Origin: Limnomonas spitsbergensis
Taxonomy: Eukaryota > Chlorophyta > Chlorophyceae > Chlamydomonadales
Direction: 5' to 3'
DNA length: 64,000 nt
Assembly: GCA_037349105.1 (NCBI GenBank)
Contig: JAYJMM010000026.1
Location: forward strand, 124,001-188,000
Numbering within the stretch: position 1 is the stretch's first letter; every line of letters starts with the position of its first letter. Shown here one piece after another: positions 24,829 to 47,513 of this stretch. Position numbers and translations under genes: made by a program. Below the pieces are notes generated by a model. That model was not told the DNA's origin, searched no databases, and was given only the letters and a program-made list of their open reading frames with translations.

Positions 24829-24903
24829 ATGACTCCTGCTTGTTTGCCCTTCTTGGCTCCGAGTTATGCTCCGTTAGCCTGGCTAGGGACAGGCTGGTCG
24901 CCC

Positions 24904-25300: not shown

Positions 25301-25474
25301 AATGGCTTTTGTTGCCCACTCCGCCAGATGGTGGCTCCTGAATTCCTCGATGGCTCTTGCCTGATCGTTGAGGTGGGGGAAATACCTGGAGCACTGCAGG
25401 ATCCCCGTCCATCCTATCGGCTGTGGCTCGTCCGCCGATCGCCCTGCTGGTTCCAGCAGCCAGCTTCATCCTGA

Positions 25475-27120: not shown

Positions 27121-27141
27121 CTTCGTCCCTTTTAGGTGGAC
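27121..27141 (-). promoter_or_regulatory. Putative self-priming arm, copy 2
   Basis: Same 21-nt arm as 15470-15490. Its partner within the repeat is 27560-27580, again with one mismatch. Confidence 0.5.
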
Positions 27142-28116: not shown

Positions 28117-28371
28117 ACTCTTCGAAATGGCCCTTAGCAATATCCGTCCCGTGTGGTGGTGCCGTTCAGTGTACATTTTCCCCATTTTTTGGTGTTCGCA
28201 TCCCCCGGTGATATGTCCAGCACTGTCCGGATGTCCACACAGAGGGCACTTGTCTGTGTTGCTTTTGCCGTACATGTACGCCAGCTTCTTATTCCATAGA
28301 CACCCATGCCGCCACTTCAGCGTGTTCTTCCGTTCGGATAGAGTGATGGCAGGATGAGTCAGGAAGCGTTT
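28117..28371 (-). pseudogene. LINE fragment, left (3') half flanking the large element
   Basis: The minus strand reads FLTHPAITLSERK, LKWRHGCLWNKKLAYMYGK, CPLCGHPDSAGHITGGC and MYTERHHHTGRILLRAISK, ending towards 28117. The other half of the same LINE (YFRGWQKGKAKADGAISK) lies at 47295-47460. Together they make one continuous LINE segment split by the gypsy insertion, with GTTT duplicated at the two edges. Confidence 0.75.
28368..28371. repeat. Target-site duplication GTTT, left copy
   Basis: GTTT precedes the element start TGTCGCACC at 28372. The same GTTT follows the other end (47295-47298). LINE reading resumes correctly if one copy and the element are removed. Confidence 0.75.
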
Positions 28372-28602
28372 TGTCGCACCATAAAGCAGTAACTGCAATA
28401 CTATGGTAAATACCGTAAACTCCGGTCAGGACACCTTAGAGAGGTGTCCTCTACTCACAAACACGGTACATCACCGTACATTCATGCTCCTTGTACTTCA
28501 GACAAGAGCTTGTTAACAAGATAACTGTAACTGGAAGTCCCTAACTGGATATCTCTGTCTGGAAGTCTCCGTCTCGTGGGTACCGCCCCTACTACTTTAC
28601 TC
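28372..28602 (-). repeat. Terminal repeat segment b2 (outer 3' end)
   Basis: 231 bp that appear identical to b1 (29234-29464). Its outer end reads GGTGCGACA on the minus strand, giving the CA terminus next to the target duplication. No copy of b is found at the 5' end of the element. Confidence 0.75.
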
Positions 28603-29231
28603 ACGCGATGTGCGCTTCAGGTCCGTGGCGGACTTCTTTCCTCACGGCAGTGATGGACGCCTACGGGCAGGCTCAGTGACTATTCACTGGCTGCGAGTGC
28701 TTTTCGAGTTAAGCAGCTGGCTGGTTATTTGTGTATATAGCAATTGACTTAGGGGCATAGGCCTTCTGGCCGTCTGGTCGCGAACCAGCTGGGCTATGTT
28801 AAGGGCACTTACCGCGTATCACGCGGAGAGATGGACGGGACGTAGACTGCGTACTTCTTCTTATGCAGGGTCTCGTTCTCTTACTGGGTACTCGTCTCCA
28901 GCTAGTTCAGCGGAGGCTGAGCTAGGCTTGACTCGAATTAAGGTACTGACTTATGTGTAAGCTGTAGGTCTCGAAGACGTCCGGTGCTTGTTACAAATAG
29001 AGGTCTGTCCTTTAGAAAGGGACGAAGTAACTAGCCAAGGCAATTGCCGGGATACAGGGACCCGGCAGGCCCAATACAGAGTACGGTAGAACCTGTCAAA
29101 CTTATCCTGCGTAAGCGGGTTTCTAGGTCTCAGCTCAAATCCGAAGACTCCGCAGAGAAGCTGCGGAGTCACCGATGACGCTAACTGCGGTCTAAACGGT
29201 TCTGTCACGTATACTGTAATATACTGTGACA
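28602..29231 (-). repeat. Terminal repeat segment a2
   Basis: About 630 bp matching a1 (46664-47294), with one single-base indel and two substitutions seen by eye. It contains the partner of the self-priming arm (CTTTAGAAAGGGACG core near 29.01 kb) and the hairpin at 29146-29170. It is flanked by b on both sides, which no ordinary LTR arrangement explains. Confidence 0.75.
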
Positions 29232-29233
29232 GC
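29232..29233. other. Two-base spacer between b1 and a2
   Basis: On the minus strand the join reads GCGACA-GC-TGTCAC: the two termini of the element placed end to end with two bases between. This is what a circle junction, or the B1-A2 join of a split-direct-repeat element, would look like. Confidence 0.6.
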
Positions 29234-29464
29234 TGTCGCACCATAAAGCAGTAACTGCAATACTATGGTAAATACCGTAAACTCCGGTCAGGACACCTTA
29301 GAGAGGTGTCCTCTACTCACAAACACGGTACATCACCGTACATTCATGCTCCTTGTACTTCAGACAAGAGCTTGTTAACAAGATAACTGTAACTGGAAGT
29401 CCCTAACTGGATATCTCTGTCTGGAAGTCTCCGTCTCGTGGGTACCGCCCCTACTACTTTACTC
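29234..29464 (-). repeat. Internal repeat segment b1
   Basis: 231 bp, apparently identical to b2, lying between the purine-rich tract and a2. Confidence 0.75.
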
Positions 29465-29482
29465 GCCCCCCGCTCCCCAGCG
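29465..29482 (-). promoter_or_regulatory. Putative polypurine tract
   Basis: GCTGGGGAGCGGGGGGC on the minus strand, directly upstream of b1. It is the best candidate for plus-strand DNA priming. No comparable purine tract abuts a2. Confidence 0.5.
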
Positions 29483-29569
29483 TTAAGCCCTCCAGGCATG
29501 CGCGGGGAGCCGGAAAAAGGGGTGGTACTGAAAAACCTTCTTTGAAAAATATGTACGTAGAAGCTCAAA

Positions 29570-29697
29570 TCATCATCTGCAAATATGCCTGGTTCCTTCC
29601 TTCTACAAATTTGCCTGGTTCAGGCCTTTTCAAATTTTGCCTGGTTCAGGCCGTCTACAAATCTGCCTGGTTCAGGCCTTCTGCAAATCTGGAAATA
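29570..29697. repeat. Palindromic tandem repeat in the element's 3' region
   Basis: Four units of roughly 25-30 bp, three carrying the palindrome GCCTGGTTCAGGC, separated by CAAAT-containing spacers. It lies between the pol stop and the purine tract and could form serial hairpins in the 3' part of the transcript. Confidence 0.6.
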
Positions 29698-30194
29698 AAA
29701 ATTAACCGAGTTTCAGCTGAAGCGCAATGCGCAGAACCCTACAAACTCAAGCTGTTCAGCCCACTACTGGCTAGCAAACAGAGAAATTTCAAAGTCATCA
29801 GGTCAAGCTAAGAACAACCGCTGCTCTCGCCCCACTGCGCCATAGCCGCCTGGTTTTTAATGGCCACAGGATTTGTGCGCCGTAGCAACGTGATCCGCCT
29901 CCTACCGTGCTATCATTGCCCGAGTTGACTAATTCTCCTCGCTCATCATCCTTATAACATATGTACTACCGTAGCCCTGCTGCTATGGTGTTTGAGAAAC
30001 AAATTTTCATTAAGCTGCCGTAACTCTACTCCTGCATCTTCCGTCTTCGGTCCGCTGGCTGTCGGCCCACTGCCTACCGGGTACTAGGACAAGCCGCGCT
30101 GCATCTGCACTTCTGCTCTGTAGGCGCCTGCCCGCTCCTTGCCAGTTACGGCGTGGGTGACGTCACGTGCTCAGCGGCCTTGCCGCTCCGGGCT
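29698..30194 (-). other. 3' noncoding region of the large element
   Basis: No open frame of note lies between the pol stop and the palindromic repeats. Composition is mixed, and no polyadenylation signal could be assigned. Confidence 0.4.
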
Positions 30195-33100
30195 TCAGGT
30201 CCCGGTAAGATCCTCAAAGGCTGACTCTTCTTCCTCCCTTGCTGCTTCTTTGGCCACCTTGGCCCTTCTTGTAACTGCTCTCGGGGTGACATTGGCCTCT
30301 CCCCGGCCAGTGGTGTACGAGATGTCATACAACCCGTTCGCCATTGGTCTTGCGATGCCCCGCTCCATTTGCCTTGTTGCTGGGTTGGTGGCCATGACTT
30401 CCACCTCAGGCCTGTCCAAGACGTCGGCCTCCTGGGCTGTCCTGGCAGCCGCTGTGGCTGCTGGGCTCGGTCGCCCCTGGACCTGTAAACTGCGCTCTTC
30501 TGTGGTGGGCCCTGCTACAGCAGCGGGCCCAGCTCCCTTGTCTTCCGGCGTGCAGTGTGGGCACAACCACTCGCCCTCAGGCACCTCCTCGAGTACTGGT
30601 ACCAAGCAGTCCATGTGCCAACCTGTATTGCAGGCATCACACAAAAGCATCACCTCTCCGCGATCGGGCAGCTGGCACACCTCGCATGACAGGCTGTTAT
30701 TGGGTCTGGTTCCACTGAAATCAACCACTCCCCTGAGGTTGGGCAAGTGGCATGGAGAACAATTGACTGCATTCTCTGTAACTGTGAGGCCATCTGCCCC
30801 TTCCAACACCAAAGTTCCCGTCGCCCCCAGTGTTTTGACCCTGAGGATCTCAGGCCTGGCCTTGGGATCGAGGCTGCGTCGCTCTGATGAATACTTCACA
30901 TACACGTAATCTCCCTCTGCAAAACGCCTGACCTGGGGGACATACCCTCCCCCACGGATGCGTGCATATCGCAGCTTGTCGCGGTGCTGCGCAATTTTTA
31001 GATGCTCACCCGCGACTGGCAGTGCTTCTTTGATCCTGGCCACTCTGGCCAAGAGCAGGTCTGCTGCCTCCTCTGCCGTTGCCACCTTGGCTGTGCTCCA
31101 GAGGTCCGCTCCCACTCTGGAGGGGAAGGTGGGTCTCTGTCCGAACAGCACCTCGTACGGCGCCATGCGCGTGGCCTGCTGCGGCGAGCATCGGAAGCCT
31201 AGGGCTACCCAGGGCACCATCTTGTCCCAGGACTCGTCGCTGCTGCCCTCCTCGCAGCACTTGCGCAGGCCTGCTTTGAGGGTCTGGACAGCCCTCTCTG
31301 AAAGCCCGTCTGCCTGGGGGTGGTTGGCAGAAGTGGTGCGATGGTCAATGAAGCAGTCCAACAACATGTCCTGAAATTCACCCTGGAACTCTGTTCCCTG
31401 GTCTGTCACCACCTCTGCGCATCCCCCGAATCGTGCAACAACATTTTGAAAGAATGCCAAGGCCGTCACATCAGACGCCTTGCTTGGAATGGGGATTAAC
31501 TCCACCCATTTGGAGTAATGCTCCACACACACCATCACGAACCGATTTCCCCTGGACGTGGTCGTGAATGGACCACACAGGTCCACTCCCCACCGGAAAA
31601 ACAACCCCTCAATGGGTAGCGGGTGCAGGTTGGGCTGTATGTGATTGAACGTGGACGCCCTGGCCCTGTCACACACACCGCATTCCTGCACCGCCTTCTT
31701 GACTGCTGCTCGAAGCCCCCGCCACCAATGCTGCTGCATGACCATGAAAGCCGTGCGGTGGCTGCCAAAATGGCCCGTACATGCATGCGCTGTCTGGATC
31801 ACTGCTAGCCTGTCTTCTGGCCTGGGCACCACACAACGTCTACCATCAGGCATGAGTCTCATCAGGACTCCTCCCCTCTCTGATTCCCACTGGAATGGCG
31901 CTGCTCTGCGCTGTATTCTAGTCTGTTCTCCTAGCTCTGTTCCCTGGACATAAGTCTTTTCACGGAGAAACCTCAAGACGGGCTCATCTGCCCACACATC
32001 GACCCTAGCCGACGGTCCTGCAGGACAACCTGGCTGGTCCTTCTCACTCTCTGTTTCCCTGGGTACTTTGATTCCAACATCAACTTGTTCTGCAGACGCG
32101 TTCCCACCTGGCTCCTGTGCCGCGTCGGCCCAGTCTGCCGCGGCCGATTCCCCCAGGCACTGTCTGTATGACGCGGCCGCTTCTCCGCTGCCGGAGCATG
32201 CGTTTCCTGCAGTAGCAAGGGCATAGTGGCTGGACATTAAAGTCGCCCCCAGAGCTGGGTCCCTGTCCTGGCCTGGCAGCTTTGCCCTGCGTGTCAATTC
32301 TGCTGGCATGATCTTAGCACACTCGAGTGCCACACTGAGCCATGCACTTAGTGCCCATGAATCCATGCTCCTGCCCAAGGCTGCCCGTCTGGCTGCCTCT
32401 GGGAAGTCTGGGCGCGGCAATGTGGACCCCACAGCGTACCCCATGGCGCGCTCACGCTCGTTTGCATTGGGCTCCTGCAAGTCCCACATGGGCCTGTACA
32501 CCATCCCATTTTGCCCGTTCCGGAAAGCATATGATGAGGGCGTGGCCATCAAACACGGCAGCACTTTTTTGGGCTGCCCTGTTACATTGATGCGGTACCC
32601 CCCATTGTCCGGACATGATACTACTTGGGCCTTGCTGCCCTTGTCCAGAATGTCGTCTACAATCCCCTCGTGGGGTCTGGTCGACGCACGAATCACAAAT
32701 TCAATATCTGCTGCAGGGGCAATATTCCCCCAATAGTTGCGGGTGCGGTGGGCGTAAGACCCCACCTGCGCTGCGTCAAACAGCGCCGGTGTTCCCAGAA
32801 TCCGGCACACCTCCTGAAAAGCCTCAACACTGGCCTTCACACTCTTCTGATTCAACTGCATTGCCACATTCTCAATCAGGTACGCTGGCGGCCTAGGCCC
32901 CTGCAGGAACTGTAGTGTACCCAACAGCTTGACTAACGGGAAGAAAGACTTGCTTCTCTCTCCCTCGAGCCCACGCCCCTTGCCTGCTGACGAAAGGTCC
33001 TGGCATTCCCAGCCTGCTACCATGAACCACTGGCGCCCCTCCTGGGCGCCCGCCCCCTGGAGGTGCTTTGCCGTAATGGCATACACATCCTGGGGCAACG

Positions 33101-36100
33101 CTCTGAACGCCTTATCAAACGCTTTGACCGGAAACAACTGAGGGTATCTCCTGTGCAACTGCACCAGGCGCCCCCCTGCGATCTCTCTGACTTCCTCACT
33201 GATATCAGCATACAGGTACTGCACCACTGGGATACCCGCCCTGAGCACCATCTCCAACCCTGAACACATACCTCCAAAGGGCTCGAAAAGGACGACTCCC
33301 TCGGTCTCCATGGCCCGCACCGCCCCACCCGACAGGCAAGCTGTGTCCAGGCCTGCATGTGAATGAGGGGGCGTCACCCGGGGCAGGTCAGCTAGAACAT
33401 CACTGATCATTGTCCTGGCCCGCTCCCTGTTGCTGAGTGCCTGTTCTGCTGTACTGACAGGCTGCGCCTGCTCATCATCGTCAGTGGCGGCTGAGGATAT
33501 CTCCTGCCCTACCGGCGCTGTCACGTAAGCTGCCTCTGCAGCTCGCAGTTTCTGTACTCTTCTTCTGCCTTCTTGTGCCATGCGCACCATCTGGTCTGCA
33601 TGCCACTGGTTCACTCTGCCCAACCCCGTGAGCAAAGCTACCTGCTTCCCCCCTGCCCCCTCCTGGGCTGCCGGCTCGGGAGCGGCTGTATCAAGCCTGG
33701 CCCCCGTGCGGTCAGCTGAGGATGGGAGTGGTGATCTGGACGGGATGTCCGCATTCTGATGGCATGCCCCTGAGCGGTGGACAATGGTAATGTCCAGCTC
33801 TTGAAGCATGAGGGCCCACCTAGCATGCTGGCCTACCAACGTCTGATTGTCCATGAGGTAAGTGAGCGGCTCATGGTCGGTGATGAGATGCACCTTGCAC
33901 CCGAACAGCATGTGACGGTATGTGCGTGCTGCATACACTGCGGCCAGCATCTCCCCCTGGAACGAGGAATAGTTCCTCTCGCTCTTGTTCAGGGATCTGG
34001 ACGTGCACGCCACCATATACTCCCGCCCGCTGTCGTCACACTGTCCTAGCACGGCACCTATGCCCTGCTTAGAGAAATCTGTGTACAGCAAGAATGGTCT
34101 CGGCGGCCCCTTGCCGTCTGGCCCTGTCCCACTGTAATCTGGCCTGCGCAGAACTCTTCCTCCCTCGCACATCTCTGTTTTGATCAACTGGAACGCCTGC
34201 GACTGCTCTGGCCCCCACACAAACGGGACCCCCTTGACCAGCAATGCGTTGATGCATGCCGCCTTTTTCGAGAAATCCGGGATGTAGCACCGGTAGAAAT
34301 TCAAGAATCCCATGACCTCCTGAATGTTTTTCACCGATGTGGGCTCTGGCAGCGCCATAACCGCTGCTATCTTGGCTGCGTGTGGCGTGAGCCCCTGGGC
34401 CGACACATTGTGACCCAGGTACTCTACCGTTGCACACCCAAACAGGGACTTGTCGGGGTGCGCCCTTAATCCTACACTGTGGAGCATGTCTAACATCAGC
34501 TCCACATGCCTGATGTGTTCTGCCGGTGTGTCACTGTACACTAGCAGATCATCAATGAATGCCACGCAGAACGCACTCAGGCCTGCCCTGGCAATCTCCT
34601 CTTCCATCATACGCTGAAAGAAGGGAGGTCCATTGCGCAGACCGAAGTTGAGCTTTGTGTACATCCAAAGCTCAGGGCCCATCCAGAAAGCTGTCTTAGG
34701 CTGGTCCTCGACCTTTATAGGGATCTGCATGAACCCCGACCGGAGATCAACCTTGCTGAATATCTTGGCAGTTCCCAGGTTCTCCATCCTGGGGATTGCA
34801 AACTCCTGCTTAGCCGTACGCAGGTTTAATTTGCGCATATCGTGCGCTATCCGGTGGTCAGTCCACTCCCCAGTCTCAGCACTCTTCTTGGCTGCTACTA
34901 CTGAGTTGGCCGCAAACTTGATAGGCCCCCCCTGGGGTACTTTGACGATAATACCTGCCTGTATCATTGGCTGGCACTTTTCTTTAAAAATGGCTGCTTT
35001 GGGCGGCGGCATATCCCTGGACTTCTGAAAGCACGAACTGACCTCGTCTTCTAAAGCCAGTGTAAACTCACCCTGCGTGCCGCAGTAGCCAGGCAGATCC
35101 TCCATGGAGTAAGCGAACGCTCCTTGGCGATCCCTGAGGCTTTGCTCCAGGCTCTCCTGCTGTGCCGCAGTGAAGTCGGGGTGCTGGCCCAGCAGCCACC
35201 CCTCCTTGGTTTTGACGTACTCCGCGGGCGGCTCCACGACTCCCCCCGGCTGGAACATGTCGATCATCTCAGCCGCCTGCGGGTCGTCCTCCGCGGGCGG
35301 CTCTTCCCTGCCAGTGTCGTTGCCACTTTGCCAGCTCTCCTGCTGGCTGCAGGCACCCCTCCTGCTGGCACCCCCCATGGGAATGACTGCTGGCGGGCGC
35401 AACCATCCAGACGACAGCTTTGCTGCTGCCTCTTGTCCAGACACAAAAGCCCCTTGGCCTGCTGTAAATCCTCCTCCTCGCACGCCCTGCCCGGTGGCTC
35501 GCGCCCCTGGCACACACACCGACAGCAGGAGCCACACCAGTATCAGCTGGAGCGCCCCCGTAAGGATCCCCTTAAATGCTGTACAGGTGAGAAGTCCTCT
35601 GCAAGCTGGTATCTGCCTCGTGGGTTTCTGCGGTAGGTGTTCTGCGGGCTGTGCGCCTGGCTCTGCGCTCTGCGCCGGCCTCTGCTGCCCACTGGCCCAT
35701 GTGATCTCCAGATCCACCTGGCTGATCCTGAGTGGCAGGACTGGGCAGTCCATTCCTGGTCTGCTGCCACGGTTCCTGTCCTCGGCTGCCCTCTGCGCCT
35801 TTCCCGCGCGCCGCCTAGCCTTTTTGGACTTTTTCCCCCGCAACTCGGCAGCGTCAGTCCAAGCCGCACCAGCCCTTTCTGGCCATGCTCTTGGTATCTG
35901 ACCTGTGCTGCCCTGTGCCAGCCGCTCCTGCCTGTGAATGGCGCGCTGCACAGTCGTGCTGCTGCCGGCACCCGCGGGCTCCTCAGGCCCACAGCCCTGT
36001 CGCAAGGTTGCCCGAGCGCTGGCAGCCCTCCTTGCAAGGGCCTCCCCCCTGCCGGTGCAAGCCTGGCTGCTGCGGCTGTCCGACGGCTGTTGGGTGTCCA

Positions 36101-39100
36101 CTCCCTTTGCCCCCATCCTGTTGAGGGCTGATATTCTCTCCGTCAGCTCCTCCTGTAGCTCCCTGACCGCCCTGCTGTAACCTCCCATCCTGGGGTTCGG
36201 ATCGGGCTGTGGCAGCATTCTGAGCCGGAAAACTAGGCTAGCCTCCTGGCTTGCCTCTTGCTGCCCCATTTCCTGCCTTCTTAGCACGTCTAGCTCATCC
36301 ACGAAGTGTCTGAGCACTGCCACCCAGCGTTCCGTGCTGTATGCTGCTGGATCGCCCCAAGGCTCCCTTGCTGCTGCCTGTGCTGGCGGGCTGATTTGTG
36401 CGTCCCCTGGGCTCCTGCCGTTCGCCTTGCCTGCTGCTGCCCCCTTAGGCTCGCCAGCGCACTGGTCTGCTGCCTGCTGCGGTTTCACCCCTACTGTGAC
36501 CTTGTGTGCCGTCTCCTCTAGCGCGGCCTTGCTGCTGCGTTCTATCTCGGCTCTCCTGGTTCTGCGCTCTTCCATGGCTGCTTGCTCCTGAGCAACCTCG
36601 CGCATCCATTCCTGTCGTAGTTGTACCAAGTCCTCCTCGCGGCCCCACACTGGACTCCCTGGTCCAGGGCCTGCGCTGGCTGGCTCTTCCATCCCATCTG
36701 CAACCCCGGTATCAGCTCTTGTGAGGCTGATCCTTGCTGGGCACGGGCTTCTGTCAGCGCCCCACTCATCCTCCGATTCTGAATCCTGCACCAGTGATGG
36801 TGGCCCTTCCGAAGGGTCTTCATTCTCCTCTTCCAGCAGCCCCCTGTCCTCATGGCTGGCACTGTCCGGGACTGTCTGGGGCTCCGCCCAATCCCCGGTC
36901 TCAGCCTCCAGGGCTGACACCTCCATGTCCTCCATGGGCTCCAGCCACTCCCAAGAGGATGCTGTTGCCCCGAGAGTGGTGACAAAGGCGACATGGCCCT
37001 GCTCTGTTGGCTCCTGGTATGTGTCCTGGATTGGCCCGTCAGTGATGGAAGCGGGGTCCCAATGGTGGGAACCCCATCTGCCCACCATCCAGCGCCCCGG
37101 CACAGGCTGAGTCCTCAGCTCCTCCAGCTCCTCCATGTAGGTATCCGCCCCTGCTCCTCTGAACAGGGGGTGCAGAGTGCGCACCCCTGCCGGGTGCGCC
37201 TGCCTCCACAGCTGTACTGTCATGCCGTTTGCCTGCCAATACGGGACCACGCTGCTGGCCCTGTTGTCGCGCCACGCTCTTCTCTCCCAGCGCACCCACT
37301 GGTGCACGCACGCTGCTAACCGTTCCACTGCGAACGGCGAGCGCGCGAACTCCTCTTCGTCTTCCCACATGGGTCCATCCGCTGGCGACCTCTGGGCCCC
37401 GTATGGCCATGTGGGGCAGTCTGTCATTTCCAGCGGCGCCCACTGATCATCCACGCCCCAGACGTGCCGCATGGCTGCTGACAGCTGTCCCGGGAGCAGA
37501 ACCCGTTGCAATGCCATGAGCATGACTGCCCATGTTGCTGGGTCTGCTCCCCTGGCGTGCGTGTGCGCGTGGAATTCTGCCTCGTCGACTGATGCACACC
37601 TGGTGATCGCCACGTTCCCTTCGCACCTGGCGAACAGGAAGACTGGCATATCATCCCGCGACGCATGCATGTGGATCCATGCTGCTGACACCGGCATCTC
37701 TCCCTCTTCCAGCTCCTCGTAGTAGTAAGTTACCAGCTGCTGAACTGGGATGGCTGCCCTGGCCTCCCCAGGGTCCATTCCCCATGGTACAGCTTGCCCT
37801 GCGACCATCCTGGGGATGGTGACCGATGCCTCAACTGTGGCCTCACACCGCCGTGGCCTATCGGCATGGCACAGCCCTGCCCCGCTGTGGGCTCCATCCT
37901 CGGGCCTGTCACCCCGTCCGTGCTCTCTTAAGGCCTGCACTGGCACATATAAGGCGCGGTCTCTGAGGGCGGAATGCTCCATCAACTGGTGGACGCAGTC
38001 TTCCGCCCATGGCGTGCGCATGAACCCGGGCTGTGCACCCTGCCACGCCCCCTCGGTGCGCGCGCTATCCGGCACGTCTGGGTGCGCCCTGTCGGCTGCG
38101 GCTACTGCTGTGATGCCTTCTTTGACGGCTAGCTCCACCATCTCGCTGACGCAGTATGCGTAGATGGGGTGCCGTGACCATCCCCTCTGCATATAAACCT
38201 CCATCCTTGTGCTGGGCTGGATGAACCCCTTGAGTGCTGCACCCAGCAGGACTGCTGTCACCGCGTCCCATGGAAAGATCAGTCTGGCCACTGCCTGCAT
38301 GGCTGCCGCTATGTTGACGCACGTGTGCGACCTGTCCTCCAGGAGCCTGTGGTTCTGCAACCTACAAAGCCCATCCTTGGACTGCGCTGGCAGAGTGATC
38401 ATAGCTTCTGAAGACGATGCCTCTGGCATTTCTTCCCCCAGGCGGTACCATTGTACGAAGCACTTGCTTTCTGGCAATCTCGGCAGGTCTGGCTCAGGGC
38501 GAGCCCGCCCTCTGCTGCCCGACCGGCCCCGGCGCCCTGTACCGGCCTGGATGAACTGGGAATCCTCATTCCCTGCAGCGGGCCTCTCGCCCCTGCTGCG
38601 GCTGCTCTGCAGCCCTCTGTCCTCTTCCTCCCATCTGGCCGCGCTGGACCGAGAGGTGGTACTGTGATGGGTCCTAACGGCCCCCGCCGTAGTGTCCTCT
38701 GGACTCATAGCTGCCGCTCCCTTGGCCCCTGGGTGGTGATCCTGCCTGCTGAGCCCATTCCCGGTCCCGGCGGCTGCTACCGCTACCCCGACGCCTGTGT
38801 CCGCGTTGCCCTCCGGGGTACCTGGGCAGGGCATGGCAGCTTCTTCCTCACGCACTGCCACAGGAGCTTGAGGCTCATGGCCTTCCTCTGAGTCGTTGGT
38901 GCCGTCCTCACTGGAACTGGTTTCCCACCCGTCTACCCTGTGCTGGAGTCCTGCCTCTTGCTCTATCCTCTCAAACTCATCCATCTGGGCATTGTAGATG
39001 TCCCATTCTTTGTCGAGAAACTGCTGGAGAATGCCAGGCCATCCCTCACATGGGGCCGGGCATCCCCTTTGCTGGAGGTTCCTGAGAAACTCCACGGCAT

Positions 39101-39170: not shown

Positions 39171-39173
39171 CTG

Positions 39174-42100
39174 TCAGTGGTGCCTTTGCTGGGCCACCTG
39201 CCCCTCTGGCACCACCTGGAATGTTACCGGCATTGCTGCGGCATGGTAGCTCACACCCCGAGCTGCTGCGTTCTGCCCAAACCCTTCATGGACCGACATC
39301 ATGCACGTGTGCCTCTCCTGGCTGACCCACCTGGAGTTGTAAGACTGCCCCGCTGGTCCCGGCCGTCCTGGCGGGCCTGGCAGCTCACTTGGTCCAGCTG
39401 TCTCCTGCTGCCTTTTCCACTCTTCAAAGGAGACCTCCTTGGCGGCCTCGTAAGCTCGCCTCATGCTGTCTTCTGACGCCTCCTGGCTCCTGCCTGGTCC
39501 TCTGACTCCCCAGCTCCTTTCCGGGCCTCCTGCTGCCCGTGATCGGTCAAACCGGCTGCTGTCGCCAGGCTGCGAGGCCTCTCCCTGCTCTGGGCACGCG
39601 CTAGCGAAGTGCCCTGGCTTTTGACAGTTGAAGCACACCCCCCCATAGCGGGGTCCGAGGACATTCCTTTGTCCCCCCATCACGCTGCGCCCTGCCTGGG
39701 CCCTGCCCGGCGGGCTCTGGCCGGAGGTTCCCCCTCTATCCTGCATTCTCTGTTCTAGCTGGTATGGCCTGGCGTGGCTACCTGTGCCTCGCTCTTGCGA
39801 CCTGCCCCTGGGCTGGCTCCCACGATTCCCGCTGGGTGACTGCTGCCTCCTGCCGCTAGGCCTGTCGAAGCTATCATCGCGGTCTGGCCGCTGGGTTCGC
39901 GCCTCCGGTGTAGGCACCGCCCCGCGGCGTTCTGCACTGCGAGCCCTCTGCGCGCTCCTGCTGCGCTCCCTGGCTACTGTATGCACGGCGTCATCTGGGG
40001 TTGCCCCCCTGTGCCGCACTCGCGTTTCCCCGCTGGCCTGCCTGGCCCCACCACTGCCCCCTGGTTCTTGCTGACCGGTGGCTTGCTGCTCCTGGTCCTG
40101 CAGCTTCTCCTGGCTCAGGCTCTCGTCCTCCTCCGCGAACTCCTCCGCGGTTTGAAACATGGCTGCCATATGCTCTGCCAGCGTCGGGTCACCTGGGATT
40201 GTGGACTGCAGCGGCTCTCCTGCCTGCTGGTTCCCAAGGTTGGCATACAGCGCTCGCAGCTGGTCTGCACGCAAGATGTACTGCTGTTGTACCTCCGTGA
40301 GCCGTACATTGGCGTCCTGGAGGCCTGTCCACCTGACCTGCTGCAACCTCAGGTATTCAATTGTTGCAGCCGCTTGGCGATACAGCAGCTCTTCCCTTGC
40401 CTTGACGTCATGCTGCAGCAACTCTACTGTTTGATGCAGCCGCAGCAGACGCATGTACTTTGGGCTGGTCCTTCCACGGACATATTCCTCCTCTGACTCC
40501 TCTGATTCTTCACTCTCCTCTTTGCTGACAAGCTCCCTCTGATCGCGGTTTGCTGCTTCTGGGGCGTCTTCCCTAACGCCCTCATCAGCCGCACCGGCCA
40601 TCTCGCCTTTGCCAGGCACTCGCACCTCCGAGCGCCTGACTGATCCTGCTGGAGCAGCTCTTGCTGCTGCGGCTCCTCCAAAGTCCACCCGCTTCCTGGC
40701 TCCTGGTGATGTCCCCTGGGTTGTGGGAACTGCCGCAGTCCTCTGCAGTATCCTCCGGATTCTCTGGTCACACGCCTCTGGTGAGTGCGGGCCAGGTTCG
40801 CCGCACAAGACACATGGGTAGCGTGGGCTCGCATCTAGGCACCTCCTGATGACCTCCTTTTGGTATGGCGACTTCGCATTTGCCTTGAGTGCCATTGCAA
40901 CCCCAGCAGCGGCCTCTGCCTGTGCTGCTGCCTGGCTTGGCTGTGACGCAGCGGCCTTGGCGTCCACCTTGCTCTCCCTGGGCACTGCAGCCTGCGCTTG
41001 CCCGCACTGGCGCGGCCTGGAAGCGGTTTCCTGTGGTTCCTCACGGCTGCTCCTGCTCGCATCTGCGGTGCTTCTGCCTGCACCTGCGGCTGTTCCGCGA
41101 CTCTGTCCCGCCTTCTGGTCTGTCCTCATGGCGGCACCTGCGTGTGTGGCCATGGCGTGCTGTAAGAGCGGCTCGTGTTCTTCCTCTACCCTGGCCGCGG
41201 GCCACCCTTCACGTTCTGCAAATCCACACCGGATTCCTGCCCATGCTACTGCTGCTGCCTGGTACCCCCCTGCTGGGGATGCTAGGACCAGCGGCAGCGT
41301 CAGGTCCCTGACCCTTCGCACTGTCTGGGGCCCATCTCTGGGGCGTAAGGTCAGCCTTCCTGCTGCCTCTAAAACCCCATTGTACTTGAGAAACTCTGGG
41401 TTCCCCACCAAGTGTTCGTATGCATCGGGCGGTGTTTTTATGACCCTGACCACCGTGGGTTCCATAATAGCATTGGGCCCCCCATATCCGTACACCACAT
41501 AAATGAACAGCACCCCATATAGATCTGCCCCTGCATTGTCTGTCGTGCGGATCTTCTCATCCGTCCTGATCAGCTCTGCCCCCATGGCGACTAACTGTTC
41601 TGCAATGTTGACTGTGATCACATGACAGGAGCACGCTGAGTCCATGAGGGCCTTCTGAGCCACCAGGACCTTTCCTTTGACCATTAGGCCCACACATTGC
41701 TCCAGGTTGCTTCTGTCGTTCTTAAAATACTGCAGCCTTGGTGCAGCTGTGACCACCTTGCTTTCCTGCCTGCCCTTACTGGCCTTACCCCTGTGGTCTT
41801 CTGAACACATGGGCATATTGGTGAATGACAGTGCCGTCAGCCTCTCGTTCAACTTGAACACCTGCAGTCGGATGTCGGACATATCGTCAGCTAATTTGCT
41901 CAAAACCAGTCTCTTTGCTCCCTTCCTGGAGGCAGGTTCCACGAGCCTTTGCTCAGGTTCCTCCTCCGGACAGGGTTCTGGCAAGAATGACCTAGGACGA
42001 GCGTTGTGAGCCGCCTGCTTGAATCCTGCGGATTTGGGCACTAGCCCAACCTGCGTCATGAGTGCTACAGACTCGCTGAGCATCTCTGCCATAGTCTGTT

Positions 42101-44750
42101 GCCAGCCCTCTGGCTCGGCTTGCCCCGTTGGGCTGCTTAGGTGAGACACGTGTGCCGATTGCTGAGCCTGACCCCCCTGGCCAGGCCCCGGCCGTTGGTA
42201 CTGCCTGTTGTTCTGATTCCGCTCGTACGGTCTGCCTGCAGGCTGACCCTGCTGCGGCCTTGGTGGGAGCGGGTACTGCTGCTGCTGCGGCCTGGACTGC
42301 CCAGCTGTAATGTCAGCAGCAAGTGGCGTCGGCCTGCGCTCATCCCTGGGTCTGGGCGCCCTGCAATCCCTGGCCAGGTGCGCCGTGCTACCACACTGGT
42401 AGCATGCCTTGACTGCCCCTGCAGCGCCTTCTGCGCTGTAATATGGTGCTCCTGATTGATCTGCCCAGGCAACTCCTCTGGGTTTGTCACTCCGCTGCTG
42501 CTGGGCAGCTGCTGTTCCTGCGGGGTTCCCTGCCCCTTCAAGGCGTGTCCGCATCTCCCACTGTCCTGTTCTCTCCTTCCTTGTTCTGTTGGACTGTGCC
42601 TCCCCCTGGCCAGGCCCACTGGCCATCTGTTTGAGGCTTGCGCCTCCTAGATCCCCCATTTCCAGGGCAAACTTCTCCCACAGCACCACCTGCTGTGTGA
42701 GTACTGCAATCTGATCTTCGTCTGTCATGCCGAGGTACCCTGGGACGGTCATAACAAACTTGCTCAGTTTGGCCTTAGCGAGCGCTGGAAGTCCATCATG
42801 GAACAGATGCGAGACCGAGTGCCTTCTGCCAAAGTGGTCCACTGCATCCCTTGAGATCTGCAGCAACTCTGCTGTCGACAGCACTCTGTGAGCAAATGCT
42901 TCCACCGTCTCCTCTGGCTTGACGTCAGGGTCGAGAGTGGTCTTCACCCCTAGCCTGAGGTTGGAAATGGCTGTCCTCTCATCCGAGGTTGGCTTTCCCA
43001 CTTCTGCTTGAACCACTTTGATCCACAAGGTTAGCAGTGAGGCCTCACAACACTGCTCCTCTGCTGGGGCAACCCACATCCCCCTTATCCTTTCTGCTTC
43101 TCTGGCAGCCCTGTCTCCTGCATGGGGCGCCGCCCTGATGGCTACCATCAGTGGCCCCACGCTGGCCGGCTTGCTGTCCCATAGCTTGACCAGTGATTTC
43201 ACCAACATCGTCATGGCTGATGGCGACTGGCACGACCCAGCTATTTCTCCGGCCACCACAGCCAGCGCTGGCGGGTCATCTGACAGCGCCAGCCTGTTGT
43301 GCGATCCCCAATATCCACATGCCTGGCAATATTTCCTGGCTGCAACCGCGCCTGGGTGCGACATATCCAACACTGGCACGTTGCCTTGGATGGCTGGGAT
43401 TTTGGTGAATTTGGCTACCCCTGCCAGCTGCAGGACCATCTGCTGCTGCAGCTGCAGGTTCACCCTTGCCTGCTCCCTCTCGAGCCTCTTCATTTCCTGG
43501 TCGCTGGACTCCTGCCTGGCTTCTGGCCTGCGTCTGTCCGATCCTCCTGGTCCCGAATCAACTGATTCTGACCGCGACCTAGATCCTCCACCACCGCCCC
43601 TCGATGGGCTGCGACCTGAATGGTATCTGTTGTGTCTGTAATAATCCTCCTCCTGATCATGATCTTCTCGTGATGGCTGCCTGCCTGCCCTTCCTGCAGA
43701 GCTTCTACTTCCCTCGGGTGGCAGCCGTTCTGATTCGCCTCTGCCTGGTCTGCTGTCAGAGCCAGGCCTCCAAGACTGCGCTCTGCCCGGCTCTGCCTGT
43801 CCCCTGGGCAGCTCCTGGTCTTGCTCATGCCTTACCCCTCTGCTGTGTTCCGCTGGTCCCCTGGGTTGCTCCTGGCTTTGCTGGCTTGGCTGTTCCCTGC
43901 CATCTGCCTGCTCTCTGGGCGGCTCCTGGCTATGCTGGCTTGGATGTTCCCTGCCGTCTGCCTGCCCTCTGGGCTGCTCCTGGCTATGCCGGTTTGGCTG
44001 TTCTCTGTTGTATGCCTGCCCCCTGGGCGGCTCCTGGCTCTGCCAACCTGGCTGCGTCCCGCCTGTGTAATTCCTGGCATATGAATCAGACTGCGTTTCC
44101 TCTCTAGCTTCCTGCATTCTTGGACCACTGCTCCGTGCGCTGCCTGCAGGCTCATTCCTCCTGGCTCCACTTGCTGTGCCCGCCTGCCTGTTCCTCAGGA
44201 ATTCCTTGATGTAATCCACCTGGGTTTCCTGGCATGTGTTCTCTTTGTCCTCGACTATGCGTAGCAACGCATAAGACTCTTGCCTGCTTGCTCTGCGTGT
44301 TGCTGTGCCTTGCTCTGCCATCCTGGCGAGTGATCGGCTAGTCAACTCCGCCCTTTCGCTGGCGGCTGGACTGCTGGCTCTGGGCGCTTCCTTGCCCCTT
44401 GGTCGCCCTCTGAGGCTTGGCTCGCTGCTGACCTCGAAGGCCTCTGATCTGAGTGCCGGGGTTGGCGCGGCTCTTGCCTGCTGCTGCCACCTTTGCACCT
44501 CCCTGAGCTCCTCCGGACGCTGCACTGCTGTTTCAAATCCTTCCCATGCCTGGTCCTCCTCCTCTTCCGGCTCGGATCCAGGTTCCACTTGATTTCCTGT
44601 TACCTCGTTGCACCACTCGTCTGCGAAGGCCTTAACAGCCAGTGCTGCTTCGCGTCCCGCCCTTCCTTGGACACCTGTCCAAGGGCGGCTAACAGCGTTG
44701 CCTTGTCCTGCCCTGTGTGGGGGATACCCAGCATGGCCTTTGTTGCCCAT
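39174..44750 (-). CDS. gag: Gag polyprotein with embedded retropepsin and three zinc knuckles
   Basis: 1858 codons; the first ~25 are probably in the wrong frame (see the upstream entry). Approximate residues: 30-470 charged, with several 18-residue RGQA/SQEP-type repeats around 230-320; 470-720 capsid-like region (YCQACGYWGSHNRLAL, DAVDHFGRRHSVSHLFHDGL); 782-795 knuckle CYQCGSTAHLARDC; 1033 retropepsin active site ALMDSACSCHVI, with LVGNPEFLKYNG some 80 residues later; 1310 variant knuckle CVLCGEPGPHSPEAC (CX2CX5HX4C); 1430-1510 coiled coil; 1560-1690 RS-rich; 1705-1718 knuckle CFNCQKPGHFASAC. The protease has D-S-A in place of D-[ST]-G and sits in the middle of Gag rather than next to RT. 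It ends GQVAQQRHH followed by UGA, with Pol in the same frame after one codon. All domains occur in the same order in the broken relatives here. Confidence 0.85.
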   Translation of the reverse strand: MGNKGHAGYPPHRAGQGNAVSRPWTGVQGRAGREAALAVKAFADEWCNEVTGNQVEPGSEPEEEEDQAWEGFETAVQRPEELREVQRWQQQARAAPTPALRSEAFEVSSEPSLRGRPRGKEAPRASSPAASERAELTSRSLARMAEQGTATRRASRQESYALLRIVEDKENTCQETQVDYIKEFLRNRQAGTASGARRNEPAGSARSSGPRMQEAREETQSDSYARNYTGGTQPGWQSQEPPRGQAYNREQPNRHSQEQPRGQADGREHPSQHSQEPPREQADGREQPSQQSQEQPRGPAEHSRGVRHEQDQELPRGQAEPGRAQSWRPGSDSRPGRGESERLPPEGSRSSAGRAGRQPSREDHDQEEDYYRHNRYHSGRSPSRGGGGGSRSRSESVDSGPGGSDRRRPEARQESSDQEMKRLEREQARVNLQLQQQMVLQLAGVAKFTKIPAIQGNVPVLDMSHPGAVAARKYCQACGYWGSHNRLALSDDPPALAVVAGEIAGSCQSPSAMTMLVKSLVKLWDSKPASVGPLMVAIRAAPHAGDRAAREAERIRGMWVAPAEEQCCEASLLTLWIKVVQAEVGKPTSDERTAISNLRLGVKTTLDPDVKPEETVEAFAHRVLSTAELLQISRDAVDHFGRRHSVSHLFHDGLPALAKAKLSKFVMTVPGYLGMTDEDQIAVLTQQVVLWEKFALEMGDLGGASLKQMASGPGQGEAQSNRTRKERTGQWEMRTRLEGAGNPAGTAAAQQQRSDKPRGVAWADQSGAPYYSAEGAAGAVKACYQCGSTAHLARDCRAPRPRDERRPTPLAADITAGQSRPQQQQYPLPPRPQQGQPAGRPYERNQNNRQYQRPGPGQGGQAQQSAHVSHLSSPTGQAEPEGWQQTMAEMLSESVALMTQVGLVPKSAGFKQAAHNARPRSFLPEPCPEEEPEQRLVEPASRKGAKRLVLSKLADDMSDIRLQVFKLNERLTALSFTNMPMCSEDHRGKASKGRQESKVVTAAPRLQYFKNDRSNLEQCVGLMVKGKVLVAQKALMDSACSCHVITVNIAEQLVAMGAELIRTDEKIRTTDNAGADLYGVLFIYVVYGYGGPNAIMEPTVVRVIKTPPDAYEHLVGNPEFLKYNGVLEAAGRLTLRPRDGPQTVRRVRDLTLPLVLASPAGGYQAAAVAWAGIRCGFAEREGWPAARVEEEHEPLLQHAMATHAGAAMRTDQKAGQSRGTAAGAGRSTADASRSSREEPQETASRPRQCGQAQAAVPRESKVDAKAAASQPSQAAAQAEAAAGVAMALKANAKSPYQKEVIRRCLDASPRYPCVLCGEPGPHSPEACDQRIRRILQRTAAVPTTQGTSPGARKRVDFGGAAAARAAPAGSVRRSEVRVPGKGEMAGAADEGVREDAPEAANRDQRELVSKEESEESEESEEEYVRGRTSPKYMRLLRLHQTVELLQHDVKAREELLYRQAAATIEYLRLQQVRWTGLQDANVRLTEVQQQYILRADQLRALYANLGNQQAGEPLQSTIPGDPTLAEHMAAMFQTAEEFAEEDESLSQEKLQDQEQQATGQQEPGGSGGARQASGETRVRHRGATPDDAVHTVARERSRSAQRARSAERRGAVPTPEARTQRPDRDDSFDRPSGRRQQSPSGNRGSQPRGRSQERGTGSHARPYQLEQRMQDRGGTSGQSPPGRAQAGRSVMGGQRNVLGPRYGGVCFNCQKPGHFASACPEQGEASQPGDSSRFDRSRAAGGPERSWGVRGPGRSQEASEDSMRRAYEAAKEVSFEEWKRQQETAGPSELPGPPGRPGPAGQSYNSRWVSQERHTCMMSVHEGFGQNAAARGVSYHAAAMPVTFQVVPEGQVAQQRHH

Positions 44751-45808
44751 CCCCGCAGATGATGGGCCTTGAACTCCTCAATAGCTGTGACCTGGTCCTG
44801 GAAATGCAGGAACGTCCTGGAGCAAACTTGCTTCCACAGATCCGTTGCCCACTGCAAAATTCCTGTCCAACCGATCGGCTGCATATGTACTTCTGACTCC
44901 TTTTCGCCGCACACTGCTCCCCCAGCCCTGGGGCGCTCTGGCTCACTAGGGCTGGTATCCTGCGCTCCTGATGGATCGTGAAAAAATCCTCGCAGGATTT
45001 CCTTGTGGCTGTCGTCTCTCTGCGTCAGGCTGCTAGATCCCTCCTTGGATTTCTGCACAGGTCTGCCCACACTGGGCGGAAACCTGGACAGCGGCGTCCC
45101 ATAGACTGTGGATCCAGCTCCTCTTCTGACCAGCACCCTGCGCGGTCGCAGCTGCTGCCTTGGGCGCAGTCCTGTCTTAGACTGCTGCCCCTTCTCTTCT
45201 TGAACTGGGTCTGACAGTTCTTCCTCGGATATTTGGTCAGCCCAGGGATTTCCTACCGGCACAGCTGACTTTTCCCTTTCCTTGCCGACCTGCGAGCTCT
45301 GCCTGCCCGCTGCTGGCTGGGGCTCAGCTTCCTCGTGTTTGACCCCTGCAGGCATACTCCTGGCCTCCATTTCCTCTGCTTTCATTCGCTGTTTGTCTGG
45401 GCAGGCTTTATCACAGCCTGCAACCTCTCTTGGTGCTGCGGCTTCCTCGGCCCTTTGATCCGTCTGACTGGGTTCGTTGACCCGTTGCGCAACCCTGGCC
45501 ACCCTGGGCGGATTCTGCTGGGGCGTGGCCTTGGGCTCGCAGCTCTGCCGCGTGTCACAGCTCTGGGACACCTCTGTTGCTTGATCCAAAATCAGCTCTG
45601 GTGTTCCAGCCTGAGTCTGCCACTGCTCGAATTCCAGGCTGCCCCTGAAATCGGCGGGCACTGGACCCCCTCGGCCGATGCCTTTGCGCGTCACCAGCGC
45701 TGAGCCGTCTGCCTGCGCCCCTGCCTCTCTGGGCGGTACGCGACCCGGTTCTGGCACCTTGCAGTTTCCAGCGGGCGGTTCCACTGGCCCTGCCAGCTTC
45801 GCCGCCAT
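44600..45808 (-). CDS. gag: Gag N-terminal region, separate frame
   Basis: 402 codons, Pro/Glu/Arg-rich, with RKGIGRGGPV, SDPVQEEKGQ and YGTPLSRFPPSVGRP as in the relatives' N-terminal domain, then GWTGILQWATDLW and GIPHTGQDKATLLAALGQVS. It overlaps the next Gag frame by about 150 bases. In the relatives at 13.5 and 25.2 kb the equivalents of AALGQVS and AFADEWC are in one frame, so a one-base loss near 44.66-44.67 kb (AAGGAAGG on the minus strand) most simply explains the break. Programmed frameshifting is the alternative. Its ATG overlaps the stop of a 46-codon frame upstream (TAATG). Confidence 0.7.
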   Translation of the reverse strand: MAAKLAGPVEPPAGNCKVPEPGRVPPREAGAQADGSALVTRKGIGRGGPVPADFRGSLEFEQWQTQAGTPELILDQATEVSQSCDTRQSCEPKATPQQNPPRVARVAQRVNEPSQTDQRAEEAAAPREVAGCDKACPDKQRMKAEEMEARSMPAGVKHEEAEPQPAAGRQSSQVGKEREKSAVPVGNPWADQISEEELSDPVQEEKGQQSKTGLRPRQQLRPRRVLVRRGAGSTVYGTPLSRFPPSVGRPVQKSKEGSSSLTQRDDSHKEILRGFFHDPSGAQDTSPSEPERPRAGGAVCGEKESEVHMQPIGWTGILQWATDLWKQVCSRTFLHFQDQVTAIEEFKAHHLRGWATKAMLGIPHTGQDKATLLAALGQVSKEGRDAKQHWLLRPSQTSGATR

Positions 45809-45948
45809 TAAGAGGGCTTCTGCAGCTGAGCCAGCTCATCACTAGCCTCCATCAGGTTTACACCCGGCTCCAGCCCCCTCAGACGCCCACTTCTCCGTTG
45901 GGCGTCAGGGTGCTGGTGCCTATCGGGATTTAGATCTACGTCTGTCAT
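45808..45948 (-). CDS. gag: Short first gag frame ending at a TAATG overlap
   Basis: 46 codons starting MTDVDLNPDRHQHPDAQRR, clearly the counterpart of the start of the relatives' Gag (DPIIDPDRHQHPEASRR). It stops at TAA (45808-45810), whose last base begins the ATG of the next frame. Either a small indel broke the Gag start or translation reinitiates at TAATG. In the relatives this region is continuous. Confidence 0.55.
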   Translation of the reverse strand: MTDVDLNPDRHQHPDAQRRSGRLRGLEPGVNLMEASDELAQLQKPS

Positions 45949-46643
45949 TCTACAGGCAATTAACGAACCGCACGGTCCTGCAAGCGTGCTGGCGACACCC
46001 TCTACAAGATCTGCTAACGCTAGGCTTCTGCCCCCTTGTTCCTACTGCAATCTGGTGAGGACTTTGCAAGTCAAGATCGGATGGCAGGTACAGCACTATG
46101 CAGGAAAGGCCTCGCCTTCCCGCTTTTCTGCTCACTAGTTTCAATCTGGCGGAATCCTCCTTCGCCCTTTCAGTTCTTCCCACCTTGCTGGCAGGGCTGC
46201 TTCTAGATGTCTCACGTCCTGCGTGGATGTCACACGCCCTGCGTGGATGTTGCCTTTTGCGTAGTGTCCGCTCAGCTCTGCGTTCCTGCGGGGATCCTTT
46301 GGCACACCCACAAGATTTCAAACTTGGATGTTCTATCCACAAGTTTACTTCTGTCAATGATGAGAAATTGGATCCACCTGATCTCAATCCGCAGTCACAC
46401 AGGGAATTATCTGCTGGGTGTATAAATCCACAGCCAGATCTTCAAGCCACTTCTGGACTCAGCACTAAGCTGCCACGCTCAGTGATTCTCAGAGTTTAAC
46501 TTGGCAATCTCTCTCTGGAGATTACCACAGCAAAGTGCAGTTCAAATGCTGTCCAAGGTCGTTTGTATGCAAACAAATTTCCAATTCGCTGCACAAGCAC
46601 CTTTAGCAGGAATTGGCAAATTAAGCTGATCAGGCTAAATCCA
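45949..46643 (-). other. 5' leader of the large element
   Basis: Noncoding, about 700 bases, partly alignable with the leaders at 14.83-15.47 and 26.48-27.12 kb. Packaging and dimerisation signals would be expected here but cannot be recognised. Confidence 0.45.
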
Positions 46644-46664
46644 CTTCGTCCCTTTCTAAAGGAC
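46644..46664 (-). promoter_or_regulatory. Putative self-priming primer-binding arm, large element
   Basis: A 21-nt segment directly inside a1, perfectly complementary to 47070-47090 within a1, about 405 bases upstream in the transcript sense. TGGATTTAGCC follows, which could alternatively be a tRNA primer site beginning TGG. The relatives have a different arm sequence but keep the pairing. Confidence 0.6.
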
Positions 46665-47294
46665 ACGCGATGTGCGCTTCAGGTCCGTGGCGGACTTCTT
46701 TCCTCACGGCAGTGATGGACGCCTACGGGCAGGCTCAGTGACTATTCACTGGCTGCGAGTGCTCTTCGAGTTAAGCAGCTGGCTGGTTATTTGTGTATAT
46801 AGCAATTGACTTAGGGGCATAGGCCTTCTGGCCGTCTGGTCGCGAACCAGCTGGGCTATGTTAAGGGCACTTACCGCGTATCACGCGGAGAGATGGACGG
46901 GACGTAGACTGCGTACTTCTTCTTATGCAGGGTCTCGTTTCTCTTACTGGGTACTCGTCTCCAGCTAGTTCAGCGGAGGCTGAGCTAGGCTTGACTCGAA
47001 TTAAGGTACTGACTTATGTGTAAGCTGTAGGTCTCGAAGACGTCTGGTGCTTGTTACAAATAGAGGTCTGTCCTTTAGAAAGGGACGAAGTAACTAGCCA
47101 AGGCAATTGCCGGGATACAGGGACCCGGCAGGCCCAATACAGAGTACGGTAGAACCTGTCAAACTTATCCTGCGTAAGCGGGTTTCTAGGTCTCAGCTCA
47201 AATCCGAAGACTCCGCAGAGAAGCTGCGGAGTCACCGATGACGCTAACTGCGGTCTAAACGGTTCTGTCACGTATACTGTAATATACTGTGACA
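46664..47294 (-). repeat. 5' terminal repeat a1
   Basis: 631 bp, begins TGTCACAG on the minus strand beside the GTTT target duplication. It matches a2 nearly perfectly but is followed by the priming arm and leader instead of by b. A 10-bp perfect hairpin lies at 47209-47233, and a CTGTCAC...GTGACAG inverted repeat lies at the outer end. Confidence 0.8.
47209..47233. other. Conserved hairpin in a1
   Basis: GACTCCGCAG, AGAAG, CTGCGGAGTC. The relatives have GGCTCCGCAG with CTGCGGAGCC: both partners of the changed pair differ, keeping the stem. The same hairpin is in a2 at 29146-29170. Confidence 0.6.
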
Positions 47295-47298
47295 GTTT
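47295..47298. repeat. Target-site duplication GTTT, right copy
   Basis: Matches 28368-28371. LINE sequence (GCTGATTGCACC) follows. Confidence 0.75.
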
Positions 47299-47513
47299 GC
47301 TGATTGCACCATCAGCTTTGGCCTTTCCCTTCTGCCAGCCCCGGAAATACACGCCAGTCGTGTCGGACTGCCCTAGTCTGCGCCTCTCATGTGTGTGAGT
47401 GTGGAGTGCCCCCCTTAGGTTTTCAAGGCTATGGGGCATTGTATTAGGGATTTCGGCGGTTATATATCACGGGCATGGCAATCCGCATCTGCCGGCGCAC
47501 ATGTGAACATGGT
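47299..47513 (-). pseudogene. LINE fragment, right (5') half flanking the large element
   Basis: The minus strand reads PHSLENLRGALHTHTHERRRL and then GVYFRGWQKGKAKADGAISK up to the insertion point; similarity to the 60.4-kb LINE (LEDLKGALKTHIHERQKLG) starts near 47.45 kb. The last ~50 bases to 47513 are unassigned. The CATGGT at 47508-47513 is the short match with CATGCT at 28111-28116 that brackets the stretch missing from copy 1. Confidence 0.7.

Follow-up and report, generated by a model that had tools for sequence, protein, structure and literature searches.

A variable end junction and split direct repeats in a family of Gypsy-like retrotransposons from the green alga Limnomonas spitsbergensis

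The retrotransposon described here raises the question of how an element that encodes a DDE integrase comes to end in split direct repeats, and by what route such an element would insert. It lies on contig JAYJMM010000026.1 of Limnomonas spitsbergensis (assembly GCA_037349105.1), in a stretch of 64,000 nucleotides (positions 124,001 to 188,000 of the forward strand) that we refer to as the window. The whole element occupies 28372..47294 with its sense strand on the minus strand, and consists of the 5' terminal repeat A1 (46665..47294, 630 nt, beginning TGTCACAG at 47294), an interior of ~17.2 kb, B1 (29234..29464, 231 nt), a GC spacer (29232-29233), A2 (28603..29231, 629 nt) and the 3' terminal repeat B2 (28372..28602, 231 nt, with its GCGACA end at 28372), all on the minus strand. 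A sequence-only reading of the window had noticed this order (A1-interior-B1-GC-A2-B2), the 231-bp B and the GC, all of which stand, and had given A as 631 bp, which we correct to 630 and 629 nt. As that reading also stated, the paired repeats are nearly identical: A1 and A2 are 2 substitutions and 1 indel apart, and B1 is identical to B2.

Repeat order and target duplications across the family

The outer ends of the window element read TGTCAC...GCGACA and are flanked on either side by GTTT (28368..28371 on the left, 47295..47298 on the right, strand not applicable). The sequence-only reading took GTTT to be duplicated within an interrupted long interspersed nuclear element (LINE), and a genome search confirmed this by recovering the empty site: the two flanks joined through a single GTTT match LINE copies without a gap. 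Of the 40 scored matches to this query, three, on a single contig, were 100% identical across the full 240 bases, and identity was 90-94% in the others. The interrupted LINE itself (window 28252-28371 and 47299-47418) is very numerous, with 40 scored matches at 90-100%.

We searched the genome that holds the window (260 Mb, 124 contigs) for each boundary of the element. The exact B-GC-A joint TGCGACAGCTGTCACAG occurs 512 times, compared with 4 occurrences of a reversed-pattern control. The boundary between A and the leader that follows it (A|leader) occurs 582 times at no more than 3 mismatches, and the boundary between the purine-rich tract and B occurs 878 times at no more than 2 mismatches, with no control occurrences for either. 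The B|leader joint, expected at the 5' end of an ordinary element whose long terminal repeat (LTR) is A+B, was searched for at no more than 3 mismatches and occurs 0 times. A leader pattern lacking A has 156 exact occurrences, and 44 of the 45 leader starts that were chosen independently of A, inside the range listed for A|leader, are exact A|leader places (the two lists were compared by eye).

The loci themselves give the same picture. At 29 of 30 5' loci read, no B precedes A (in one of these, L027, A is cut short); in the remaining locus, L023, B-GC precedes A in a dimer-like composite. Downstream of 78 A|leader places, the exact joint is found 4-30 kb away on the same strand in 43, 17 of them at 17.2-17.5 kb, and it lies ~630 bases upstream in one, which is again L023. 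Of 18 copies with paired ends, 17 are flanked by equal 4-bp duplications, and in the remaining one (L027/L047) the outer end of A is missing; four of four further paired copies also have matching 4-bp duplications. With the window included, the outer TG/CA ends are flanked by 4-bp target duplications in 22 of 22 testable copies, all of one repeat order.

Identity to the window's repeats among the 18 paired copies ranges from 74 to 99% for B and from 83 to 99% for A. Within one copy, gaps not counted, 0-5 substitutions separate A1 from A2 and 0-3 separate B1 from B2. This near-identity within copies, despite the divergence between them, indicates that both repeats are renewed together, like LTRs.

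Two diverged relatives in the window, at 15.5 and 27.1 kb, begin with A followed by leader, as the sequence-only reading had observed in arguing that the arrangement is inherited. They are not two independent cases: window 7667-16460 and 19312-28116 are one 8.8-kb stretch, carrying a related element's 5' part, that has been duplicated at 99.3% identity, and we count it once. The split-repeat arrangement is nonetheless common to the whole family, as the 512 joints and 582 A|leader sites show. A recombinant or assembly error confined to a single copy was ruled out by the hundreds of joint sites, by the 22 copies with their own duplications and by the B|leader count of 0.

Junction X and joint J

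Two boundaries between the repeats behave differently. The joint J, between B1 and A2, is near-palindromic and reads TGCGACA-GC-TGTCACA (29225..29240, minus strand). The junction X, between A2 and B2 (28592..28613, minus strand), reads GCACATC-GCGTG-AGTAAAGTAG in the window, a rarer type. We searched for X as GCACATC and AGTAAAGTAG no more than 20 bases apart, a pattern to which larger losses at X are invisible, and list here 100 of the 235 sites, which are sites and not independent insertions. They comprise 70 GCG, 8 GCGA, 8 ACG, 7 GCGTG (including the window) and 4 GCGT, with GCGTGT, GTG and GCGT plus 12 bases occurring once each; all 8 ACG sites come from two tandem arrays on one contig. 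The types GCG, GCGT, GCGTG and GCGTGT correspond to A extended by 0-3 bases of the primer site described below, as variable primer removal would leave, and GCG stops exactly where the 23-nt complement starts. In all, five of the X types either extend A in this way or stop at the start of that complement.

By contrast, the spacer of J is GC in 31 of the 31 loci with a readable J among 40 loci chosen for X (L059-L098), with spacers of 0-10 allowed, and in 96 of 100 sites listed when the search fixed the spacer at two bases. The difference extends to copies that are otherwise almost the same: L060, L072 and L080 are 99.0-99.7% identical over B-J-A and have three different X, and L045 and L075 are 99.7% identical and have two.

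We then placed X on a tree of 49 copies, restricted to loci with readable X, J and B1. The sample was enriched on purpose for the rarer types of the 100 listed sites, and 18 of 49 is therefore not a frequency. L001 and L004 (the same places as L039 and L056), L078 (an array piece) and L066 (0.3% from L065 and ~6 kb away on the same contig) were dropped. Scored as common or rare, X requires 15 changes, compared with a mean of 14.99 over 500 shuffles, 304 of which were at or below that number. Four trees built from half of the columns gave 16, 15, 14 and 15 changes versus shuffle means of 14.92, 14.86, 14.83 and 14.83, with 425, 328, 197 and 319 of 500 shuffles at or below the count for X. Control columns of similar frequency follow the tree: on the full tree, 47 of 47 were at or below all 60 shuffles (median ratio 0.41). 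These columns had also helped to build the tree, and the comparison was repeated with held-out columns. Held-out odd and even columns were below all 60 shuffles in 19 of 19 and 26 of 28 cases (medians 0.46 and 0.48), and held-out halves tested against each other in 13 of 28 and 14 of 19 cases (medians 0.73 and 0.63), with no held-out column above a ratio of 0.91. The weaker half-against-half signal suggests some recombination among copies.

Because nearly identical copies carry different X and X has no phylogenetic signal, X forms afresh, or almost so, at each insertion, whereas J is copied.

Enzymes, priming signals and a probable route of insertion

The Pol-like frame (30198..39173, minus strand, 2992 aa), searched against Pfam in two pieces, contains reverse transcriptase (RT), RNase H, C5-methylase, H2C2, rve (DDE integrase) and PHD domains; the rve and H2C2 matches uphold the DDE integrase of the sequence-only reading. 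The C5-cytosine methylase lies between RNase H and integrase (window 30198-34502, minus sense, residues 455-800). Nine aligned sequences of the integrase region (30753..31865, minus strand) share three invariant residues, the D in GVDLCGPF, the D in VTDQGTEF and the E in SERAVQ, which we take to be the catalytic triad. The same region, searched against sequences of solved structures, matches Ty3 (7q5b, 9.8e-20) and the integrase of prototype foamy virus (PFV; 3l2q, 6e-15). By its Pol domain order (RT, RNase H, then DDE integrase, as in Ty3/Gypsy elements) and its integrase similarity, the element would be classed as a Ty3/Gypsy-type retrotransposon. No tyrosine recombinase domain was detected in three sense frames or ten antisense frames, and the repeat arrangement of PAT/Ngaro type is thus found apart from that enzyme, as the earlier reading had it.

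A1 is followed by a putative primer site of 23 nt (46643..46665, minus strand), the exact reverse complement of a segment within A (sense A ~204-226), and the purine-rich tract GGGGAGCGGGGGGC (29465..29478, minus strand) directly precedes B1. Part of the primer site had served to find the 30 5' loci, which leaves only the A segment independent; the pairing is free of mismatches in 27 of them and has 1 mismatch in two and 2 in one. The relative at 27.1 kb carries four pairs that remain paired after changes to both partners, one that is now G-U and one that is broken, a covariation that supports the predicted pairing. The RNA fold predicted from the A segment to the primer site, 23-nt helix included, has z = -5.95, with 0 of 100 shuffles as good. 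The element would be self-primed in the manner of Tf1, its primer site pairing with its own upstream RNA. In the standard scheme of LTR reverse transcription, primer site and purine tract define the limits of the LTR in the complementary DNA (cDNA). Since the primer site abuts A1 and the purine tract abuts B1, reverse transcription should yield an LTR of the form B-GC-A, and the TG and CA ends of the genomic copies would then fall inside the cDNA LTR.

We consider it probable that the ends of the cDNA are joined at X and that the joined molecule is opened at J by a DDE integrase and inserted. Reverse transcription would make a cDNA (B-J-A)-interior-(B-J-A), the two ends of which would be joined, most simply as a two-LTR circle, a step in which A would meet B at the new junction X. 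Both strands of J read CA-GC-TG, and a single cut behind each CA would therefore yield two ends like those of 3' processing; the DDE integrase would cut the palindrome in this way, leaving TG...CA ends, and would do so in the LTR ahead of the interior and not in the other. Once inserted, with 4 bp of the target duplicated, the linearised molecule would read A-interior-B-J-A-X-B, and the genomic copy is indeed a circular permutation of the cDNA, as if joined at X and opened at J. As a ligation product X should vary, and as a templated sequence J should stay constant. The joined form would be a closed circle and J would presumably be cut by the element's own integrase, while host repair, or RT jumping from one end to the other, would join the ends. 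For some reason J would be opened on one side only; our guess is that plus-strand synthesis, over 17 kb, would make the 5' LTR double-stranded much earlier than the 3' LTR. From an arrangement now confirmed, the sequence-only reading had proposed an unusual route that might involve a circle, and an A|B junction made afresh at each insertion supports that interpretation.

Several points weigh against this route. Head-to-tail concatemers would serve equally well as a circle. A two-LTR circle has two J, and random opening should therefore also yield A-X-B-J-A-interior-B, a form not met among the 78 A|leader places, where exact J was looked for. The extra A of the GCGA type is not accounted for by primer removal, and recombination among copies may have blurred X too, though X ends the tested stretch. 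The primer site, the purine tract and the LTR limits are read from sequence alone. The product of cutting the joined ends of human immunodeficiency virus type 1 (HIV-1) was reported as not known in infected cells (PMC1905944).

The first of these points leads to the strongest rival, in which ends are joined with no closed circle: concatemers or an RT jump would make X, and integrase would cut two J of a longer linear molecule. The same X and J would result, the odd A of GCGA and the 12 extra bases at one X could be polymerase-made, and tandem B-J-A-X arrays do occur. We nevertheless regard it as unlikely, since none of the 18 paired copies is a dimeric insertion, only one composite was found (L023/L057), and the equal X within tandem arrays looks like later unequal exchange. 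Far less credible is a templated route like that of PAT or Ngaro, in which RNA would run from A1 to B2, the A2-B2 tail would be copied and B1-A2 would bridge the cDNA ends. It would explain a repeat order that matches PAT, Ngaro and VIPER as described (PMC6681497), but a templated X would be inherited, and X lacks phylogenetic signal and differs among copies that are 99.0-99.7% alike. We give next to no credence to insertion of a circle by a tyrosine recombinase acting in trans from PAT-like elements, a kind reported from Chlamydomonas and Volvox (PMC3266345, PMC8226300): the element codes for its own DDE integrase and has TG...CA ends with 4-bp duplications in 22 of 22 testable copies, whereas DIRS1-like recombination is described as duplication-free (PMC3266345). 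Rearrangement of an ordinary A+B LTR element after insertion, or faulty assembly, is just as improbable, recombination products (solo A-X-B, A-interior-B and tandem arrays) notwithstanding, with the same order and its own duplication in each of 22 copies and the B|leader joint at 0.

Such derived forms were read directly. From the listed 100 purine-tract|B sites we picked by eye and fetched 39 that lacked a listed exact joint: J is present in 27 (as a related type, or altered at a base further out), B adjoins the flank in 11, and the end of B is unreadable in one. Three of these 11 A-interior-B copies could be read at both ends, and all three have 4-bp duplications (AAAC, TATA, TAAC). Such copies could have come from one-LTR circles opened at J or from recombination between B1 and B2; because such recombination leaves the same product, we dropped them as proof of one-LTR circles and do not count them in favour of a circle. 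Solo A-X-B copies have duplications in three of three cases with both ends, and a fourth is truncated. The 5' end of L109 was looked for in L141 and was not found.

Tandem B-J-A-X arrays are present at L077 and L078 (G000 C40 594300-609800) and at L088 (C22), with equal X within each array and a unit length of 862 bp in L077 and L078. The dimer-like composite at L057 (G000 C9 3185300-3190300) runs interior-B-J-A, a 20-nt leader stub, interior end, B-J-A and B, and L023 runs interior, B, GC, A and then a leader stub.

Relatives, known systems and what the repeat order means

The remainder of the element's coding sequence consists of a Gag-like frame with a zinc knuckle (39177..44777, minus strand, 1867 aa), which is in the same frame as the Pol-like frame with one stop codon between them (window 39174-39176), and, upstream of it, a 411-aa open frame with no Pfam match (44603..45835, minus strand). 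Short tandem repeats occur as 54-nt units in the Gag-like frame (window 43849-44063) and as 26-nt units in the 3' interior (window 29581-29684).

Integrase homologues with a named source, among the 120 of 289 matches listed, come from Haematococcus, Tetrabaena, Volvox, Pleodorina, Chlamydomonas and one bacterial metagenome bin, and the matches listed for the methylase region add Cymbomonas, Closterium and Monoraphidium. The order RNase H-methylase-integrase recurs in many homologues from green algae and metagenome contigs. Klebsormidium is not named among the integrase or methylase-region matches listed, and viral contigs gave no relatives. Three matches fall in bacterial or archaeal genome contigs, L099, L100 and L101 (PUMO01000133.1, PWFW01000202.1 and PUMO01000218.1), which encode algal-type retrotransposon Pol and, by content, are evidently eukaryotic sequence contaminating bacterial metagenome bins. 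L100 and L101 stop ~0.6-0.7 kb past the integrase match and contain no direct repeats and no such palindrome. In L099, whose integrase is 48% identical, the Pol frame ends at 3818 and is followed by a run caggggggta (4550-4559), a 16-bp perfect palindrome CGTGACAGCTGTCACG (4608-4623), an inverted 16-nt pair at 94% (4707-4722/5061-5076) and the next long frame, starting at 6295. None of 300 shuffles of the stretch produced the palindrome core GACAGCTGTC, whereas 90 of 300 produced some palindrome of at least 14. The repeat finder gave no B1/B2 repeat in L099, which has a single B-J-A only; the stretch looks like purine tract-B-J-A-primer site in another species, on a contig that may merge copies.

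Genomic copies of retroviruses, of Tf1 and of Ty3 carry plain LTRs, and to our knowledge Ty3 has neither methylase nor PHD. The Limnomonas element resembles yeast Ty3 in its RT-RNase H-integrase order and its integrase (7q5b), and shares with Ty3/Gypsy elements the TG...CA ends and a short target duplication; it lacks their equal full LTRs at both genomic ends, having A at the 5' end and B-GC-A-B at the 3' end. The order A1, interior, B1, A2, B2 is that described for PAT-like elements, Ngaro and VIPER, which use a tyrosine recombinase where this element has a DDE integrase and a 4-bp duplication (PMC6681497, PMC3266345). With Tf1 and Tj1 it would share a primer site complementary to an upstream part of its own RNA (PMC4600332), here 23 nt long and ~430 nt away. 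PFV integrase was reported to cut a palindromic two-LTR junction with the loss of two bases (PMC1180852), and HIV-1 integrase to cut its own two-LTR junction symmetrically in vitro, leaving a four-base overhang (PMC1905944). As in these viruses, the palindrome here is a joint of two ends, and as in PFV two bases between the CA positions are lost; in the viruses, however, the palindrome is the LTR-LTR junction, whereas here it would lie inside the LTR and the LTR-LTR junction would be X.

The closest description that we found is of the Gypsy-Dnmt3 element of K. nitens, set alongside by description, which likewise has Gypsy domains, a methylase inside Pol and repeats said to have DIRS structure (De Mendoza et al., 2018, Fig. 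4 legend; PMC5890265). The available text of that paper discusses no integration mechanism, junction or duplication, and a literature search on the element's name listed that paper alone. Our literature search gave no account of DDE-integrase elements with split repeats that insert from joined ends, within a reach that left out most subscription papers, including the original TOC1 and PAT reports. A Gypsy element with repeats of DIRS type was thus already noted in 2018, without a mechanism (PMC5890265); the element described here combines Gypsy enzymes with the repeat order of PAT and a junction that forms afresh with each insertion.

Retroviral two-LTR circles are said to be considered a dead end (PMC5314604). 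With some hesitation, we lean towards a broader picture in which an old green-algal lineage of DDE-integrase retrotransposons routinely integrates from the two-LTR circle, having built the cutting palindrome into its LTR; only the joint ahead of the interior would be opened, and the genomic copy would be a circularly permuted insert that records the circle junction. Many genomic copies bear the footprint expected if end-joined cDNA were the normal substrate of a retrovirus-type integrase, and the question of joined-end integration becomes directly testable. Split direct repeats are thereby uncoupled from tyrosine recombinases: the repeat order would mark insertion from joined ends and not a class of enzyme, so that an element called DIRS or PAT on the strength of its repeats may end up in the wrong class.

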